A stretch of 64,000 bases of DNA, from positions 1 through 64,000 of the forward strand of contig DASUYB010000094.1 in the NCBI GenBank assembly GCA_036377595.1. Reading direction: 5' to 3'. This DNA comes from Longimicrobium sp. (GTDB taxonomy: Bacteria > Gemmatimonadota > Gemmatimonadetes > Longimicrobiales > Longimicrobiaceae). This document shows, piece by piece, positions 44,292 through 52,258 of the stretch (position 1 is the first letter of the stretch; each line of letters begins with the position of its first letter). The position numbers and the translations under genes were made by a program. A model generated the notes under the pieces. That model was not told the DNA's origin, made no database searches, and saw only the letters and a list, made by a program, of their open reading frames with translations.

Positions 44292-44363
44292 CTCTCACGG
44301 AGGGCACAGAGGTCACGGAGGATGAGGTTCTGTTCTCCGTGACCTCTGTGCCCTCCGTGAGAG
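44292..44363. terminator. Long palindrome (family P), copy 4
   Basis: A perfect 29-bp stem pairs 44292-44320 with 44335-44363, with A-rich runs on both sides, as expected for a bidirectional terminator. Confidence 0.85.
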
Positions 44364-46610: not shown

Positions 46611-46751
46611 TCACGGCTGTGGGGGAGGGCCGCCGGGGCCGCGCCGCTGCGGCATCATCGCCCGCGCCTTCTCCTGCTGGTCGGGGGTGAGAACAGCCAT
46701 CGCGCGCTCGATGAAGGAGTTATCCCCCAGCATCCGATCGTCGGCGACCAT
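46611..46751 (-). pseudogene. Short LTxxQ-containing ORF, probable remnant
   Basis: A 46-codon frame reads MVADDRMLGDNSFIERAMAV then LTPDQQEKARAMM and a Pro/Gly/Arg tail. The LTPDQQ motif is the Spy/CpxP-type LTxxQ motif, also present in the next gene upstream and in the receptor's C-terminal domain. It has no signal peptide and only half a domain, so it is probably the 3' end of a decayed copy cut by the palindrome at 46761. AAAGGG before the ATG leaves open that it is still expressed. Confidence 0.5.
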
Positions 46752-46760
46752 CCCTTTGAT

Positions 46761-46833
46761 CTCTCACAGAGGGCACAGAGGTCACGGAGGAACTGCAACG
46801 AATCCTCCGTGACTTCTGTGCCCTCTGTGAGAG
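46761..46833. terminator. Long palindrome (family P), copy 5
   Basis: A 31-bp stem pairs 46761-46791 with 46803-46833. There is one non-Watson-Crick position, which is a possible G-U pair. It lies 51 bases past the stop of the LTxxQ sensor gene. Confidence 0.82.
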
Positions 46834-46883
46834 ACTTCTTTAGTTTTCCGCGTCTCCGCGTCTCCGCGTGAGGCAATCCCTCG

Positions 46884-47312
46884 CTACGGCCGCGCCGAGG
46901 GCGGGGATCCGCGCTGCGAGCCGTTCCCGGTCATGCGGTCGAGCCCGCGGCGCCGGCGCTCGAGGTTCGCGTCGAACTTCTTTCGCTGCGCGGGGGTGAG
47001 GACCACGCGGATCTCGCCGTTCGTCGAATCCATCGCGGCGCGCAGCTGCGGGCGCACCGACGCCAGCAGCGAGTCCACGCGCGGCCGGCGGCGCTGCATG
47101 ATGGCGTCGATGCGCCGCCTCTGGTCGTCGGTCAGCCCGTAGCGGCGCTGCATCGACTCGGCCACCGCCCGCGGGCCGCGGTGGCGCCGGGGCTGGTCGC
47201 CGCGCACGCGCTCCCACGCGGCGCCCGCCAGCGCGCCGGCCACGAAGGTCAGCACCAGCGCCAGCGTGGCCAGCAGCCACACGCGGCGCGCGGAAAGGGG
47301 GCGAGCGCTCAC
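46884..47312 (-). CDS. Periplasmic LTxxQ (Spy/CnrX-like) sensor, membrane-anchored
   Basis: This 142-residue protein has an N-terminal transmembrane helix (about 11-31, WLLATLALVLTFVAGALAGA). A helical periplasmic domain with two LTxxQ motifs follows, YGLTDDQRRRIDAI (about 60) and VVLTPAQRKKFDANL (about 104), the hallmark of Spy/CpxP chaperones and of metal sensors such as CnrX and ZraP. The GTG start overlaps the stop of the upstream anti-sigma candidate by 4 bases. With the ECF sigma gene two genes upstream, this resembles the CnrYXH-type layout. Metal binding is not shown; the mature part has no obvious His/Met/Cys cluster. Confidence 0.8.
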   Translation of the reverse strand: MSARPLSARRVWLLATLALVLTFVAGALAGAAWERVRGDQPRRHRGPRAVAESMQRRYGLTDDQRRRIDAIMQRRRPRVDSLLASVRPQLRAAMDSTNGEIRVVLTPAQRKKFDANLERRRRGLDRMTGNGSQRGSPPSARP

Positions 47313-47680
47313 CGGCCCTCCGGATCGGGAACCAGCAGCTGGTCGGCGCGCGAGCCGCCGCCGGCCTCCACCCAGCTGGCCAGCTCGGCGGGCACGCCGA
47401 TCCCCTCACCCACGCCGGGTTCGGCCGCGGAGGCCAGGGGCTGCGCCGCCGGGGGCTCGCCGGCCAGCGCCAGCACCCCCCCGAAGGCCAGCACCAGCGC
47501 GGCGGCCATCGCCAGCGCCGGGCGCACCCAGCGGGCGAGCGGCGCCACCGGCCCCGCGGCAAAGCGGCGGCGCGCCAGCTCGGACGCCGCGGCGGCGCGG
47601 GTGCGGCGCAGCAGCGCCTCCCAGCGCTCGGCGTCGTGCCGCGGGTCCAGCGGGCCCAGGTCCCTGAAGTCGTGGCTCAT
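47309..47680 (-). CDS. Single-pass membrane protein, candidate anti-sigma factor
   Basis: This 123-residue protein has a cytoplasmic helical N-terminus (ERWEALLRRTRAAAASELAR), one transmembrane helix (about 53-73) and a short extracytoplasmic tail. The layout matches minimal anti-sigma factors of the CnrY kind. No ZAS HxxxCxxC motif is present. The ATG at 47680 overlaps the sigma stop, and its own stop overlaps the LTxxQ sensor start, so all three are translationally coupled. The anti-sigma role is inferred from position and topology. Confidence 0.65.
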   Translation of the reverse strand: MSHDFRDLGPLDPRHDAERWEALLRRTRAAAASELARRRFAAGPVAPLARWVRPALAMAAALVLAFGGVLALAGEPPAAQPLASAAEPGVGEGIGVPAELASWVEAGGGSRADQLLVPDPEGR

Positions 47681-48237
47681 GGCGGTGTCTCTTCGCGATA
47701 GGTCGGCCCCAGCAGCGCGCGCAGCGCCCGCCGGGCATGGTGCAGGTGCACGCGCGCGGCGCCCTCGCTGGTGCCCACGGCGTCCGCGATCTCGCGGTGG
47801 CTCCACCCCTGCACGTCGTACAGCAGCACCACCTCGCGCTGGGTGGGGCTCAGGTGCTTCAGCGCCTCGGCCAGCCGCTCGCGCAGCTCGGCGTCCTCGG
47901 CCTCGCCGGCGGGGCCGCGGCCGCGCGCCGGCGCCTCGCCCGCGGCGTCCAGCGGCAGCGCGCGGCGCACGCGCTCGCGGCGGCGCAGGTTGTGGGCGCG
48001 GTTGCGCACGATCTGCAGCAGCCATCCCACGAACGCCTCGGGGCGCCGGACCTCGTCCAGCCGCTCCAGCGCGGTCACGAAGGCGTCCTGGCACACGTCC
48101 TCGGCGTCGTGCCGCTCGCCCGTGTGGGCCAGCGCCACGGCGTAGGCCGCGCGCATGTGGCGGCGCATCAGCACGTCGAACGCGTCGCCGTCGCCGCGGC
48201 GCACCCGCTCGATCAACAGGGCGTCGGATTCCGTCAT
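47677..48237 (-). CDS. ECF-type RNA polymerase sigma factor
   Basis: This 186-residue sigma factor has region 2 (about 8-80: ALLIERVRRGDGDAFDVLMR, HDAEDVCQDAFVTALERL) and region 4 (about 120-175: LKHLSPTQREVVLLYDVQGW, SHREIADAVGTSEGAARVHL), with an acidic linker. I chose the ATG at 48237; the frame extends to 48291 without homology. It heads a coupled sigma, anti-sigma, LTxxQ-sensor set, and starts 85 bases past the stop of a receptor gene that also carries an LTxxQ domain. It probably autoregulates the cassette. Confidence 0.9.
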   Translation of the reverse strand: MTESDALLIERVRRGDGDAFDVLMRRHMRAAYAVALAHTGERHDAEDVCQDAFVTALERLDEVRRPEAFVGWLLQIVRNRAHNLRRRERVRRALPLDAAGEAPARGRGPAGEAEDAELRERLAEALKHLSPTQREVVLLYDVQGWSHREIADAVGTSEGAARVHLHHARRALRALLGPTYREETPP

Positions 48238-48321
48238 GCGGTGCGGGCGCGGCACGGCCCGTAGCCGCCCCGGAGCCTCAACGGTATGCACCGGGGTCCG
48301 GCCGGTCCATCCCCCCGGCCC

Positions 48322-51300
48322 TCACCGCGGGGCGCCGAACTGCTGCCGCACCGCGTTGCGCAGCGCCGGCGGCACCCGCCGCCACTGCTCCGGCGTCAGG
48401 ATCCGCTCCGCCTGGTCCAGCGCCTTCTGCACGTTCTGCCGCCCCTCGTTCAGCCGCGGGCCCACGCGGCGGAACACGGCCTGCGGGTCGGCGCTTCCCC
48501 CCTGCTGCGCCTGCTGGAACGCGTTCGCCAGCGCCTCGCCCACCTCGGCGCGGATCGGCGCGTTGACGGCCTTCAGCGTGTCGTTCACCGCCGTCAGCCG
48601 CGCCACCTGCTCGTCCGTCAGCCGCAGCGTGTCCTTCAGCAGGAGGATGGCGTCGATCGGCTGCGGCAGCAGGCGGTCGACGAAGGCCGACGGGTCGGGC
48701 CCACCCTGCCCCCGCTGTCCGCCGCCGCGGTCGAATCCCCCGCGCTCTCCCCCGCCCCGCTCGCCGCCCGGCCCGCCGGCGCCGGCGAACGCGATCCCCA
48801 GCAGCCCCGCGTTCGGCTGCTGCCGGCCCAGCGCGATCCGCGCGGACAGCTGCACGCCGAAGGGCGATCCCGCGGCGGAGCGGAAGACGCGCGTCTGCCC
48901 GAACCCCTCATTGACGCGGTAGCGGTACTCCCGCGTCACAGGATCGAATCCCGTCGGGTAGAGGAGCACGTTGTCGGGCCGCCCGCCCTGCCCCCACCCG
49001 TGCAGGCCGCCGCCGCCGTGCAGCAGCAGGTCCAGCCCCGCGGGAAGGTTGAAGGCGTCCAGGCTCACCGTCACCCGGCGCTGCAGGCGGGCCCCCTGCG
49101 GCGTGTACGCGGCGCGGAAGTCCAGCGACTCCGTCCACGGCCCGCGGCAGCTGTTCCGCCTGGCGATGTCGCCCGTCTGGGAGCGGAGGCACGAAGTGAT
49201 GCGGTTCGAACCGGAGAGGACGCGCCCCAGCGCCGCCGACATCGCCGTGTCGGCCACGGCGGAGGGGTCGAAGACGAAGGCCGCGTCGTTGCGCGCGCCG
49301 TCGCCGTTGACGTCGCCGCCGACGATGGGCGTGTAGGGCTGGCCCGAGCTGGCGCGGCCGATCAGGCTGGTCTCCAGCGAGCGGCCGAAGGTCTTCCCCA
49401 GCACCAGGGTGAAGGAGTGGCGGCGGTCCTGGTCGCTCGGCGCCCACTCGTTCGCGTTCGGGTTCCCGCGCGTGGGGGTGAACTGGAAGCCCGCCGACGG
49501 CCCGCCGAAGCCGAACGACGTCTGGTCGCGCGAGTGCGTGAGCGTGTAGCTGGCCTGCGCCGAGACGGCCCGCGGCAGCAGCCCGTTCACGCTCAGCACC
49601 AGCTGCTCCGTCTGCGACGCCAGCTCCGAGTTCAGCTCGTACACCCGCGCGAACGCCGGGTCGTTGCGGCTGGCGTACAGCGACGCCTGCCCCGTCGCGG
49701 GGACGATCGCCGCCGCGGGGACGAAGACGGGGCGGCCGTCCTCGCCCGCCAGGGTGAAGGCGGGCGTCTGGCGCAGGTTCAGGTCGCGCACGCCGTACTG
49801 CGCCACGCCGCGCGAGATGGTCGCGTCGATGCTCCCCGTCACCCGCTGGAAGAGCTGCGCCTGGAAGCCCAGCGATCCCCGCCACGACCGCGGCGCCTGG
49901 AAGCCGCCGCGGAAGAGGGTGACGTTGGGCGTCTGCGCCGTCGTCCCGCTCCCCAGCGTGCCGTCGGTGCAGGTGGCGGGGATGGTGGACGGGTCGCCCT
50001 CGTACGCCATCCAGTCGGGCGTGGGAACGTTGCCGCCGACGCAGGAGACCTCGATCTCCCCGCCCGCGCCCGTTCCCGCCAGCGTGGCCGCGTACAGCTC
50101 GTACGGCGTGCGCCCGCGGAACTCGCCGAAGCCGCCGCGCAGCAGCCGCAGCGGCGCGCCCGTCTCGTTGATCCGCCAGCTGAACCCGAAGCGCGGGCTC
50201 ACGTGCACCTCGCTCGGCGCGAAGTCCGTCCGCCGGCCGAAGGAGGCCTGCACGGCGGGGTTCGCGTCCGGCGCGCGGTCGAAGCGCGAGCCCTCCACCC
50301 GCACGCCGAAGGTGAACTGCAGCCCTTCGCTCGTACGGAAGGCGTCGCCCAGGTAGCCCGCCAGGTTCCATCCCCCGCCGTCGATCTCGCCGGAAGAAAG
50401 GGTGCGCGTGAACGCGGCCGGCGTGCGCGCCTGGAAATCTTCCAGCGAGTTGAAGACGAAGGTGCCCAGGCGGTTGCCGGCGTTCTGCTGCGTGAACCCG
50501 GAGTGGTTGGCCAGGATGCCCAGCTTGACGCGATGGCGGTCGCCGACGAGGAGCGACAGCTCGTCGGCCACCTCCAGCGTCCGCTCGTCCGACGCGGAGG
50601 AGAGCGACGGGTCGCCGCCGAAGACGAGGTTCGAGACGGCGCGCCCCCCCGCGGCCACGGTGGCCGGGTCCGCGCCCACGCGCACGATCCCCTGCGGCAC
50701 CCGCAGCGTGGGCGAGCCGTCGCGCGAGTCCAGCGTGTAGCTGGCGCGCAGGTCGTTGATCCAGGTCTGCCGGAAGCGCGAGGTCACGCTGGCCAGCACC
50801 GCGCCGCCCTTCGTGTCGACCGAGCCGCCGCTCTGCTGCGTCTCCAGCGTGCCGATGCGCGAGTGGTCCTGCGAGTAGACGCTGCCGTAGCCGCGCAGGG
50901 TGAAGGTGTGCTCCTGCGTGACCACCCAGTCGAAGCGCCCCAGCGCGCTCAAGGCGTCGCCGGTGCGGCTGTACGGCCCGGCCAGCCCCGCCGTGCTGAA
51001 CCCGTACTGGCCGGAGAGGCCGGTGAGGAACTGGTCGACGGTCTCCGAGGTCAGACCCAGCTGGCCGAGGCCCTCGCCGTTGCGCGGCTCCAGCGCGTAC
51101 AGCTGGTCGGAGCGGCGCTGCGCGGCGAAGCTCAGGTTGTAGAACAGCTTGTCCTTCACGATGGGCCCGCCCAGGCCGCCGCTGCCGCGGAACTGGTTCC
51201 AGCCGTTGTTCCACGGCGTCCGGCCCGTGCCGCCCTGCAGCGCGTCGCCGCGGAACTGCGTCTGCAGCGACCCCTGCACGCGGTTGGTGCCGCCGCGGGT

Positions 51301-52044
51301 GGTGCTGGCCACCTGCCCGCCCGAGAACTGCCCGCGTGCCACGTCGTAGGTGTTGGTGATGACCTGCGTGGAGCGGACGCCCTCCTGCGGCAGCCCCAGC
51401 GGACTGCCGCCGCCCAGCTGCCCGCCCGAAAGCGCGGAGGCGAACGAGGCGCCGTCCAGCGTCACCTGGTTCTGCGACGCGCGCTGCCCGGCCACGGAGA
51501 ATCCGCCGCGCCCGCTCAGCGAATCCGCGCCGTCGGTGGCGACGACGCCGGGGGTGAGGGTGGCGATGGCGGCGGGGTCGGTCTGGTTCTCCAGCGGCAG
51601 CCGCTGGGCGAGCTCGGAGGTGACCGCGCGGCCGGTGCTCCCCGACTCGCCGCGGCCGGGGGCGGGGCGCGGCGCGCGCGCGGTCACGCCCTGCAGCTGC
51701 ACCGCCTGCGTGCCCAGCTGCACGTTCGCGGTCAGCACGTCCTCGTCGGCCACGCGGGCCACGTTCAGCGTCCGCGGCGCCTGCCCCAGCCGCGCCACGC
51801 GCACCTGGTAGCGCCCGCCGCCGTCGGGGAAGACCACGGTGTAGCGGCCGTCCGCGGCGGTCGTCGCCGTGCGGCTGGTGCCCGTCTCGACGGACGTCAC
51901 CTGCACGCTGGCGCCGGCCACCGGCTCGCCGCGCTCGTCGGTCACCCGGCCGCGGATCACGTCGGTGGTGGACCCCACCTGCGCCCCCAGCCGCGCGGCC
52001 GGCAGCAACAGCAGGGCGATGAGAAGAACAGCGAGTCGCCGCAT
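48322..52044 (-). CDS. Oar-like TonB-dependent receptor fused to a C-terminal LTxxQ domain
   Basis: This 1240-residue protein has a signal peptide (to about residue 22). A CarboxypepD_reg-like domain (about 28-105, IRGRVTDERGEPVAGASVQV) follows, then a plug with RGGFSVAGQRASQNQVTLDG and a large barrel that ends near GVQLSARIALG (about 1070). Past the barrel there is a Gly/Arg-rich linker (about 1080-1115) and a helical domain with RLTDEQVARL (about 1145) and ILTPEQWRRV (about 1215), the paired LTxxQ motif of Spy/CpxP proteins. A C-terminal extension after the last strand should lie in the periplasm. It precedes the sigma/anti-sigma/LTxxQ-sensor genes on the same strand. Confidence 0.88.
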   Translation of the reverse strand: MRRLAVLLIALLLLPAARLGAQVGSTTDVIRGRVTDERGEPVAGASVQVTSVETGTSRTATTAADGRYTVVFPDGGGRYQVRVARLGQAPRTLNVARVADEDVLTANVQLGTQAVQLQGVTARAPRPAPGRGESGSTGRAVTSELAQRLPLENQTDPAAIATLTPGVVATDGADSLSGRGGFSVAGQRASQNQVTLDGASFASALSGGQLGGGSPLGLPQEGVRSTQVITNTYDVARGQFSGGQVASTTRGGTNRVQGSLQTQFRGDALQGGTGRTPWNNGWNQFRGSGGLGGPIVKDKLFYNLSFAAQRRSDQLYALEPRNGEGLGQLGLTSETVDQFLTGLSGQYGFSTAGLAGPYSRTGDALSALGRFDWVVTQEHTFTLRGYGSVYSQDHSRIGTLETQQSGGSVDTKGGAVLASVTSRFRQTWINDLRASYTLDSRDGSPTLRVPQGIVRVGADPATVAAGGRAVSNLVFGGDPSLSSASDERTLEVADELSLLVGDRHRVKLGILANHSGFTQQNAGNRLGTFVFNSLEDFQARTPAAFTRTLSSGEIDGGGWNLAGYLGDAFRTSEGLQFTFGVRVEGSRFDRAPDANPAVQASFGRRTDFAPSEVHVSPRFGFSWRINETGAPLRLLRGGFGEFRGRTPYELYAATLAGTGAGGEIEVSCVGGNVPTPDWMAYEGDPSTIPATCTDGTLGSGTTAQTPNVTLFRGGFQAPRSWRGSLGFQAQLFQRVTGSIDATISRGVAQYGVRDLNLRQTPAFTLAGEDGRPVFVPAAAIVPATGQASLYASRNDPAFARVYELNSELASQTEQLVLSVNGLLPRAVSAQASYTLTHSRDQTSFGFGGPSAGFQFTPTRGNPNANEWAPSDQDRRHSFTLVLGKTFGRSLETSLIGRASSGQPYTPIVGGDVNGDGARNDAAFVFDPSAVADTAMSAALGRVLSGSNRITSCLRSQTGDIARRNSCRGPWTESLDFRAAYTPQGARLQRRVTVSLDAFNLPAGLDLLLHGGGGLHGWGQGGRPDNVLLYPTGFDPVTREYRYRVNEGFGQTRVFRSAAGSPFGVQLSARIALGRQQPNAGLLGIAFAGAGGPGGERGGGERGGFDRGGGQRGQGGPDPSAFVDRLLPQPIDAILLLKDTLRLTDEQVARLTAVNDTLKAVNAPIRAEVGEALANAFQQAQQGGSADPQAVFRRVGPRLNEGRQNVQKALDQAERILTPEQWRRVPPALRNAVRQQFGAPR

Positions 52045-52258
52045 GCGTCCCTCGAAAGGCGTCCGTCAACGGTGTCGGAAGCGGGAGATCGGCAGCAAGC
52101 GCCGCACCCGGTCCGCCGGCACAGGGACACGCGCAAACGGGGTGATGTTAAAGGAGATGGGGCTTCACGGCGGGAAGATGGACGCGGCGGACGGCCGCAC
52201 CCGCGCGCTCCGCGTCCTCCGCGTCCTCCGCGTGAGATCCTTCCGGGCCGCGGACGCG

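Follow-up and report, generated by a model that had tools for sequence, protein, structure and literature searches.

How might an outer-membrane receptor inform a sigma factor of its state when its extra domain lies behind the barrel, at the C-terminus? The question is raised by a locus of Longimicrobium sp. that we examined within a window of 64,000 nucleotides (the whole stretch of DNA that was analysed: assembly GCA_036377595.1, contig DASUYB010000094.1, positions 1-64,000 of the forward strand; the window genome is G000 below). Five genes run in the same direction on the minus strand from 52044 to 46611, encoding a TonB-dependent receptor, an extracytoplasmic function (ECF) sigma factor, a 123-amino-acid single-pass protein, a 142-amino-acid LTxxQ protein (the sensor) and a 46-amino-acid LTxxQ fragment. 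Taken as a whole, the locus is best explained as an autoregulated operon for signalling across the envelope, to which we assign a probability of roughly 0.55. The evidence lies in domain content, gene order, recurrent linkage of receptor and sigma factor genes, and a promoter sequence that they share. Genes outside the window were called in this analysis, and many of the loci come from metagenome assemblies.

By its sequence, the tail of the receptor is a member of the LTxxQ family. The original prediction had described a Gly-rich linker and a helical domain with two LTxxQ motifs after the last barrel strand, and this description was borne out. The tail matched LTXXQ (PF07813) at E 3e-7, scoring 31.5 bits within the whole receptor and 36.1 bits when searched alone (cut-off 24.3), and contains the motifs LTDEQ and LTPEQ. 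Its model was all-helical, with a predicted local distance difference test score (pLDDT) above 90 over the domain, so that the Pfam match is accompanied by a confident helical model. The same domain scored above the cut-off in the receptor of a distant relative, and an LTPEQW signature followed by VP was retained in nearly all receptor tails aligned. The structural matches of the tail included CnrX, NccX, ZraP and Spy-like/VirG-like structures among the best, with Z-scores of 7.3-8.5 (VIA), and Z-scores under 13 are weak for helical bundles. Foldseek with the tail model returned no match at E under 0.001, and searching solved structures with the sequence profile of the tail yielded mainly coiled-coil noise. 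In the remainder of the receptor, Pfam identified CarboxypepD_reg (E 3e-16) and OMP_b-brl_4 (E 1e-42) and gave no match to an STN domain at the N-terminus up to E 1. The model has a plug and about 22 strands, then the flexible linker and the tail. Because both ends of TonB-dependent barrels face the periplasm, we infer that the tail is periplasmic.

Receptors with LTxxQ tails are widespread in Gemmatimonadota. Many genomes of the same order contain them, as do loci obtained by scanning 80 relatives, where the named sources were all Gemmatimonadota (the search patterns were family-specific). The tail profile matched 132 of 298 Gemmatimonadota genomes, largely in frames longer than 1,000 residues, a count that includes some free-standing LTxxQ proteins. 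A chance fusion or annotation artefact was ruled out, as the fusion recurs in dozens of genomes. In some receptors (L069, L070, L072, L076, L077 and L079) the C-terminus has at least two tandem LTxxQ domains.

All five genes appear to be transcribed as a single unit from the promoter of the receptor. Gene calls and domain matches upheld the predicted series of ECF sigma factor, single-pass anti-sigma candidate and membrane-anchored LTxxQ protein directly downstream on the receptor strand. The overlaps of 4 bases that had been reported were present at the ECF/anti-sigma (ATGA) and anti-sigma/sensor (GTGA) junctions but not between receptor and ECF, which are separated by an 84-base gap. We found no sigma-70 promoters inside the operon, and predicted terminators there did not exceed a shuffled control.

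The sensor is of the Spy/CpxP/CnrX family and has no recognizable metal site. It matched Metal_resist (PF13801) at E 6e-7, with 30.1 bits against a cut-off of 29.2, and the NCBIfam Spy model at E 7e-8, below the cut-off of that model. A profile of the sensor family matched E. coli Spy in the PDB at E 1e-8, making Spy its closest solved structure. Among 16 aligned sensors there was no conserved His, Met or Cys, and the sensor domain in the window has no Cys and no His past its first few residues; metal sensing as the main idea was dropped because these ligands are missing. Among solved structures, the ECF sigma factor matched SigE (E 3e-21) better than CnrH (4cxf; E 5e-13). The anti-sigma candidate has one hydrophobic segment and no Pfam match, and its aligned family matched no solved structure up to E 1; its topology fits CnrY. 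Cassettes of this kind (ECF, anti-sigma and LTxxQ genes) are widespread in the order, with ECF matches in 104 of 117 genomes and sensor matches in 72, and several of those in relatives adjoin TolC and HlyD-type efflux genes.

Two variants of the cassette deserve mention. Genome G017 encodes, behind a good ribosome site (L277:853-1377), a 174-amino-acid protein in which an anti-sigma-like N-terminus is combined with a hydrophobic segment and an LTxxQ domain; one copy of the ECF-type motif described below lies about 124 bases upstream, and the protein represents a natural link between both functions. A second type of cassette, with genes for a secreted LTxxQ protein, an ECF sigma factor and a single-pass membrane protein, is conserved in Longimicrobiaceae (L163, L150, L151, L156, L157, L164 and L165) and usually stands divergently to a second, more distant ECF pair, and one such cassette is present in the window genome, at G000:C17.

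Many receptor genes and many ECF cassettes have an ECF-type promoter in common. TAAC-N16-GTGT was conserved in an alignment of six upstream regions of ECF1, the first ECF gene of the two-cassette loci described below, and the longer form TTAAC-N16-GTGTC precedes the receptor gene both in the window and, at a different offset, in the sister genome G003. In 1.8 Mb of loci there were 15 TAAC-N16-GTGT sites, and for 13 of them the next gene within 450 bases encoded an ECF, a receptor-LTxxQ or an LTxxQ protein. The core AAC-N16-GTGT preceded 12 of 66 receptor-LTxxQ genes (p 1.6e-9), 17 of 70 ECF genes (p 2.7e-14) and 4 of 78 small LTxxQ genes, compared with 11 of 951 other genes, and spacers of 12 and 20 between AAC and GTGT gave no such enrichment. 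Many of the motif-bearing receptors (e.g. L055, L056, L057, L061, L063, L067, L068 and L070) had no part in motif discovery. The window genome (7.2 Mb) contains 4 exact copies of TTAAC-N16-GTGTC, one of them at the receptor, and 0 in a backward-read control; two of the 3 copies in G003 lie at the receptor and at a secreted LTxxQ gene, and eight other genomes of the genus that were searched have none. A shared motif had been anticipated upstream of both 52044 and 48237; it was present before the receptor start, but none was found upstream of the ECF start. The enrichment supports control of the receptor gene by its partner ECF sigma factor, and the receptor very probably belongs to the sigma regulon.

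A further copy of TTAAC-N16-GTGTC in the window genome lies 166 bases before a complete operon of MacA-, ABC ATPase-, MacB-permease- and TolC-like genes (G000:C23; L268:4096-9017), which is likely a further member of the regulon.

On the receptor tree, linkage of the receptor to an ECF/anti-sigma/LTxxQ cassette is found in three distinct positions. The linked groups are the window and G003; L198 and L205; and L206, L216, L217, L219, L230 and L233, with L192, which ends at a contig edge, showing the downstream half of the last arrangement. As a label on the tree, linkage needs 3 changes, and 0 of 500 shuffles were as low. The ECF sigma factors that accompany linked receptors fall in different subclades, which means that the association was gained or rewired on more than one occasion; a single ancestral linkage is not supported. 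In the six loci of the third group, all from metagenome-assembled Gemmatimonadota genomes, the order is ECF1, anti-sigma, sensor, receptor-LTxxQ and an HD-domain gene, followed by ECF2, anti-sigma, sensor, TolC, HlyD and a MacB-like permease. In L216 and L219 the sensor and receptor genes overlap, and in the other four they are separated by 18 to 86 bases (for L217, with the upstream start taken). The HD-domain gene, conserved between the receptor and the second cassette in all six, encodes 169-193 amino acids. Given 57 contexts, the estimated chance of at least three independent neighbours lying within 3.5 kb was about 1e-3, and for direct same-strand neighbours about 4e-6, both rough values that assume independence. 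About 66 tail-less receptors of the same barrel family, counted by eye, had no ECF within 10 kb among the matches listed, the nearest being at 18 kb.

Several observations weigh against a signalling operon. Most receptor-LTxxQ genes are not beside a sigma cassette, and linkage is not general; among the Longimicrobiaceae searched, the arrangement of receptor followed by cassette was limited to G000 and G003. Several genomes with the receptor had no ECF match at E 1e-25 (e.g. G018, G050 and G068), and G005, G006, G007 and G018 gave no match to the window sensor. Receptors thus occur in genomes that have no close relative of the ECF or the sensor, and the pairing is therefore not obligatory. Fewer than one in five receptors have the exact motif, and the six ECF regions, the window and G003, where the motif was first seen, are no independent test of it. 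In nine Longimicrobiaceae loci (L055, L056, L057, L059-L063 and L067) the receptor instead lies divergent from genes for an OmpR-type regulator and a HAMP/PAS histidine kinase. The idea of a conserved cassette thus withstood the refuting conditions set for it, though in qualified form: linkage held for three receptor lineages but not in general, and the predicted co-occurrence was found for a minority of the widespread fusions. In several of the nine loci, the region between receptor and regulator contains spaced GTAAC repeats (as in L061) together with the ECF-type motif, which suggests dual control.

We propose the following model for the operon in the window. The small membrane anti-sigma protein would hold the ECF sigma factor, and the membrane-anchored LTxxQ sensor would set anti-sigma activity much as CnrX acts on CnrY, with no metal site involved. 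The sigma factor presumably reads the AAC-N16-GTGT promoter before the receptor and so would drive its own operon, such that the receptor would be made together with the sigma factor, the anti-sigma protein, the sensor and, where its gene is intact, a secreted LTxxQ protein. The tail would hold its LTxxQ domain on the periplasmic side, anchored to the outer membrane through the flexible linker, where it most likely pairs with the sensor. Such pairing would be natural because LTxxQ proteins, among them Spy, CpxP and CnrX, dimerise, and it is plausible that the tail reports to the sensor in this way. The sensor/anti-sigma complex would then be altered by a change in receptor state, whether in cargo, in occupancy or in assembly. 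With no metal ligands in the sensor, the state of the receptor or envelope protein stress is the more likely signal. More tentatively, at somewhat less than even odds, Gemmatimonadota outer-membrane receptors may report to ECF/anti-sigma cassettes through pairing of C-terminal LTxxQ domains with membrane-anchored LTxxQ sensors, a counterpart to Fec-type signalling that uses the other end of the receptor and a different fold, in which the partner, a cassette or a two-component pair, has been swapped repeatedly.

The strongest competitor is that the receptor is an output of the regulon and does no signalling. The tail could be a Spy/CpxP-like periplasmic chaperone that aids folding of a very large receptor or holds the cargo of an Oar-type exporter, and the receptor a product made under an envelope-stress sigma factor for protection from stress. 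We consider this possible, if on the doubtful side. Spy is the solved structure nearest to the sensor family, tandem LTxxQ domains would suit client binding, and Oar of Myxococcus xanthus is a TonB-dependent transporter required for PopC secretion (PMC6434023). The secreted LTxxQ protein has a promoter motif as well, and the receptor retains an ECF-type promoter even beside a two-component pair instead of a cassette. However, regulon members can sit anywhere, so that a role as output alone does not account for the repeated linkage of one receptor family to a whole cassette, including the overlap of sensor and receptor genes. It is because of this repeated physical linkage that the present data modestly favor signalling.

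Chance and metals explain less. That the arrangement within Longimicrobiaceae is confined to G000 and G003 would fit a rearrangement in their ancestor only, but linkage in two further unrelated receptor lineages, the rough chance estimates above, and the shared promoter, which requires another explanation, already disfavor a chance neighborhood, and we regard it as very unlikely. Least likely of all is a switch for metal resistance, in which a CnrYXH homologue would detect a metal by means of its LTxxQ sensor and the receptor would transport metals or metallophores. The Metal_resist match of the sensor, the CnrX structures among the best matches of the tail, the ECF match to CnrH among others, and the TolC/HlyD/MacB-type efflux genes beside related cassettes are all in its favor. 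On the other side, metal ligands are not conserved across the sensor family (the window sensor domain is almost without His and has no Cys), His, Cys and Met are all absent from the receptor tail, the ECF matches SigE better than CnrH, and the efflux genes are MacAB-TolC-like ATP-binding cassette (ABC) systems and not of the resistance-nodulation-division type.

The system in the window works like both Fec-type and CnrYXH systems and, by the features examined, is a member of neither. Fec-type transducers have an N-terminal signalling domain that touches a FecR-type anti-sigma factor (PMC9249621, PMC11637429). Fec, Fox and Pup share with the window an outer-membrane TonB-type receptor, a membrane anti-sigma factor and an ECF sigma factor in one regulatory unit, an ECF-type promoter before the receptor gene, and an extra periplasmic receptor domain outside the barrel. 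Here, in contrast, the extra domain is C-terminal and of the LTxxQ family, the N-terminus carries CarboxypepD_reg in place of STN, and a separate LTxxQ sensor accompanies a small anti-sigma candidate that has no FecR domain. CnrYXH and NccYXH of Cupriavidus metallidurans likewise combine an ECF sigma factor, a small single-pass anti-sigma factor and a membrane-anchored LTxxQ sensor in overlapping genes, and the efflux genes beside relatives of the window cassette are a further likeness. CnrYXH depends on metal ligands (His, Glu and Met in CnrX) that the window sensor lacks, and has no receptor, whereas the operon here includes an outer-membrane receptor that itself carries an LTxxQ domain; the gene order here is sigma, anti-sigma, sensor, and the efflux systems of relatives are MacAB-like. 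Spy and CpxP/CpxAR also tie periplasmic LTxxQ proteins to envelope-stress signalling, and several relatives' receptors adjoin an OmpR-type regulator and a HAMP histidine kinase, but in the window an ECF/anti-sigma pair takes the partner's place, and the LTxxQ domain is built into an outer-membrane receptor. Oar consists of CarboxypepD_reg and an OMP_b-brl_4-type barrel, as does the body of the window receptor; we know of no LTxxQ tail on Oar, whereas the tail here belongs to a phylum-wide receptor family. No paper describing such a system was found in the literature searched: papers that join LTXXQ with TonB-dependent or ECF sigma/anti-sigma were unrelated, judged by their titles and abstracts, and the single paper found for Gemmatimonadetes, TonB-dependent and sigma factor was unrelated too.

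The short LTxxQ remnant at the end of the operon is real and decayed. At the same place in G003, whose receptor is 87% identical to that of the window over the last 273 residues, the receptor, ECF, anti-sigma and sensor genes are followed by an intact gene for a secreted LTxxQ protein of 154 amino acids, and the remnant (MAVLTPDQQEKARAMMPQRR) aligns with its end (MAVLTADQQEHARAMMPQRR). The rest of the gene has decayed in the window, where an inverted repeat now sits (Table 1). The long near-perfect inverted repeat (CTCACAGAGGGCACAGAGGTCACGGAGG) is present a second time in the window, at 44294-44361, and is probably a dispersed palindromic element of the genome.

Table 1. Features of the receptor operon and its surroundings (window coordinates).
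Feature	Position	Strand	Basis
ECF-type promoter candidate TTAAC-N16-GTGTC, 105 bases before receptor start	52126..52151	-	motif search
Oar-type TonB-dependent receptor, 1240 amino acids, C-terminal LTxxQ domain	48322..52044	-	Pfam and structure model
CarboxypepD_reg domain, N-terminal, residues 30-110; place of the signalling domain in Fec-type transducers	51715..51957	-	Pfam
Outer-membrane beta-barrel OMP_b-brl_4, residues 363-1000	49045..50958	-	Pfam and structure model
Gly-rich flexible linker past last barrel strand, about residues 1074-1115	48700..48825	-	sequence; pLDDT under 50
LTxxQ domain, helical, residues 1136-1220, conserved LTPEQW-xxVP signature	48385..48639	-	Pfam, alignment, model
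ECF sigma factor, 186 amino acids	47677..48237	-	domain matches; start backed by homologues
Anti-sigma candidate, 123 amino acids, short cytosolic N-terminus, one transmembrane segment	47309..47680	-	conserved beside ECF in relatives
Membrane-anchored LTxxQ sensor, 142 amino acids, N-terminal transmembrane segment, Spy/CpxP/CnrX family, no metal ligands	46884..47312	-	Pfam, NCBIfam
Inverted repeat, 32 bp, 97% complementary, between sensor gene and remnant	46760..46834	+	repeat analysis
C-terminal remnant of secreted LTxxQ gene	46611..46751	-	alignment to intact 154-amino-acid gene in sister genome G003

Known sigma-linked receptors signal through one type of domain at the receptor N-terminus, and a C-terminal solution, if true, would be a second. 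The fold of CpxP, Spy and CnrX in a receptor would then join cell-surface signalling, Cpx-type stress sensing and Cnr-type regulation. Gemmatimonadota are abundant soil bacteria with few genetic studies, and the system, if it works as proposed, would give the first regulatory handle on their large sets of receptors. The promoter motif renders the regulon predictable, as for the MacA-MacB-TolC-type efflux operon in the window genome. Because the same pairing of receptor and cassette recurs in distant relatives, it points to an undescribed route by which signals pass from the outer membrane to genes.

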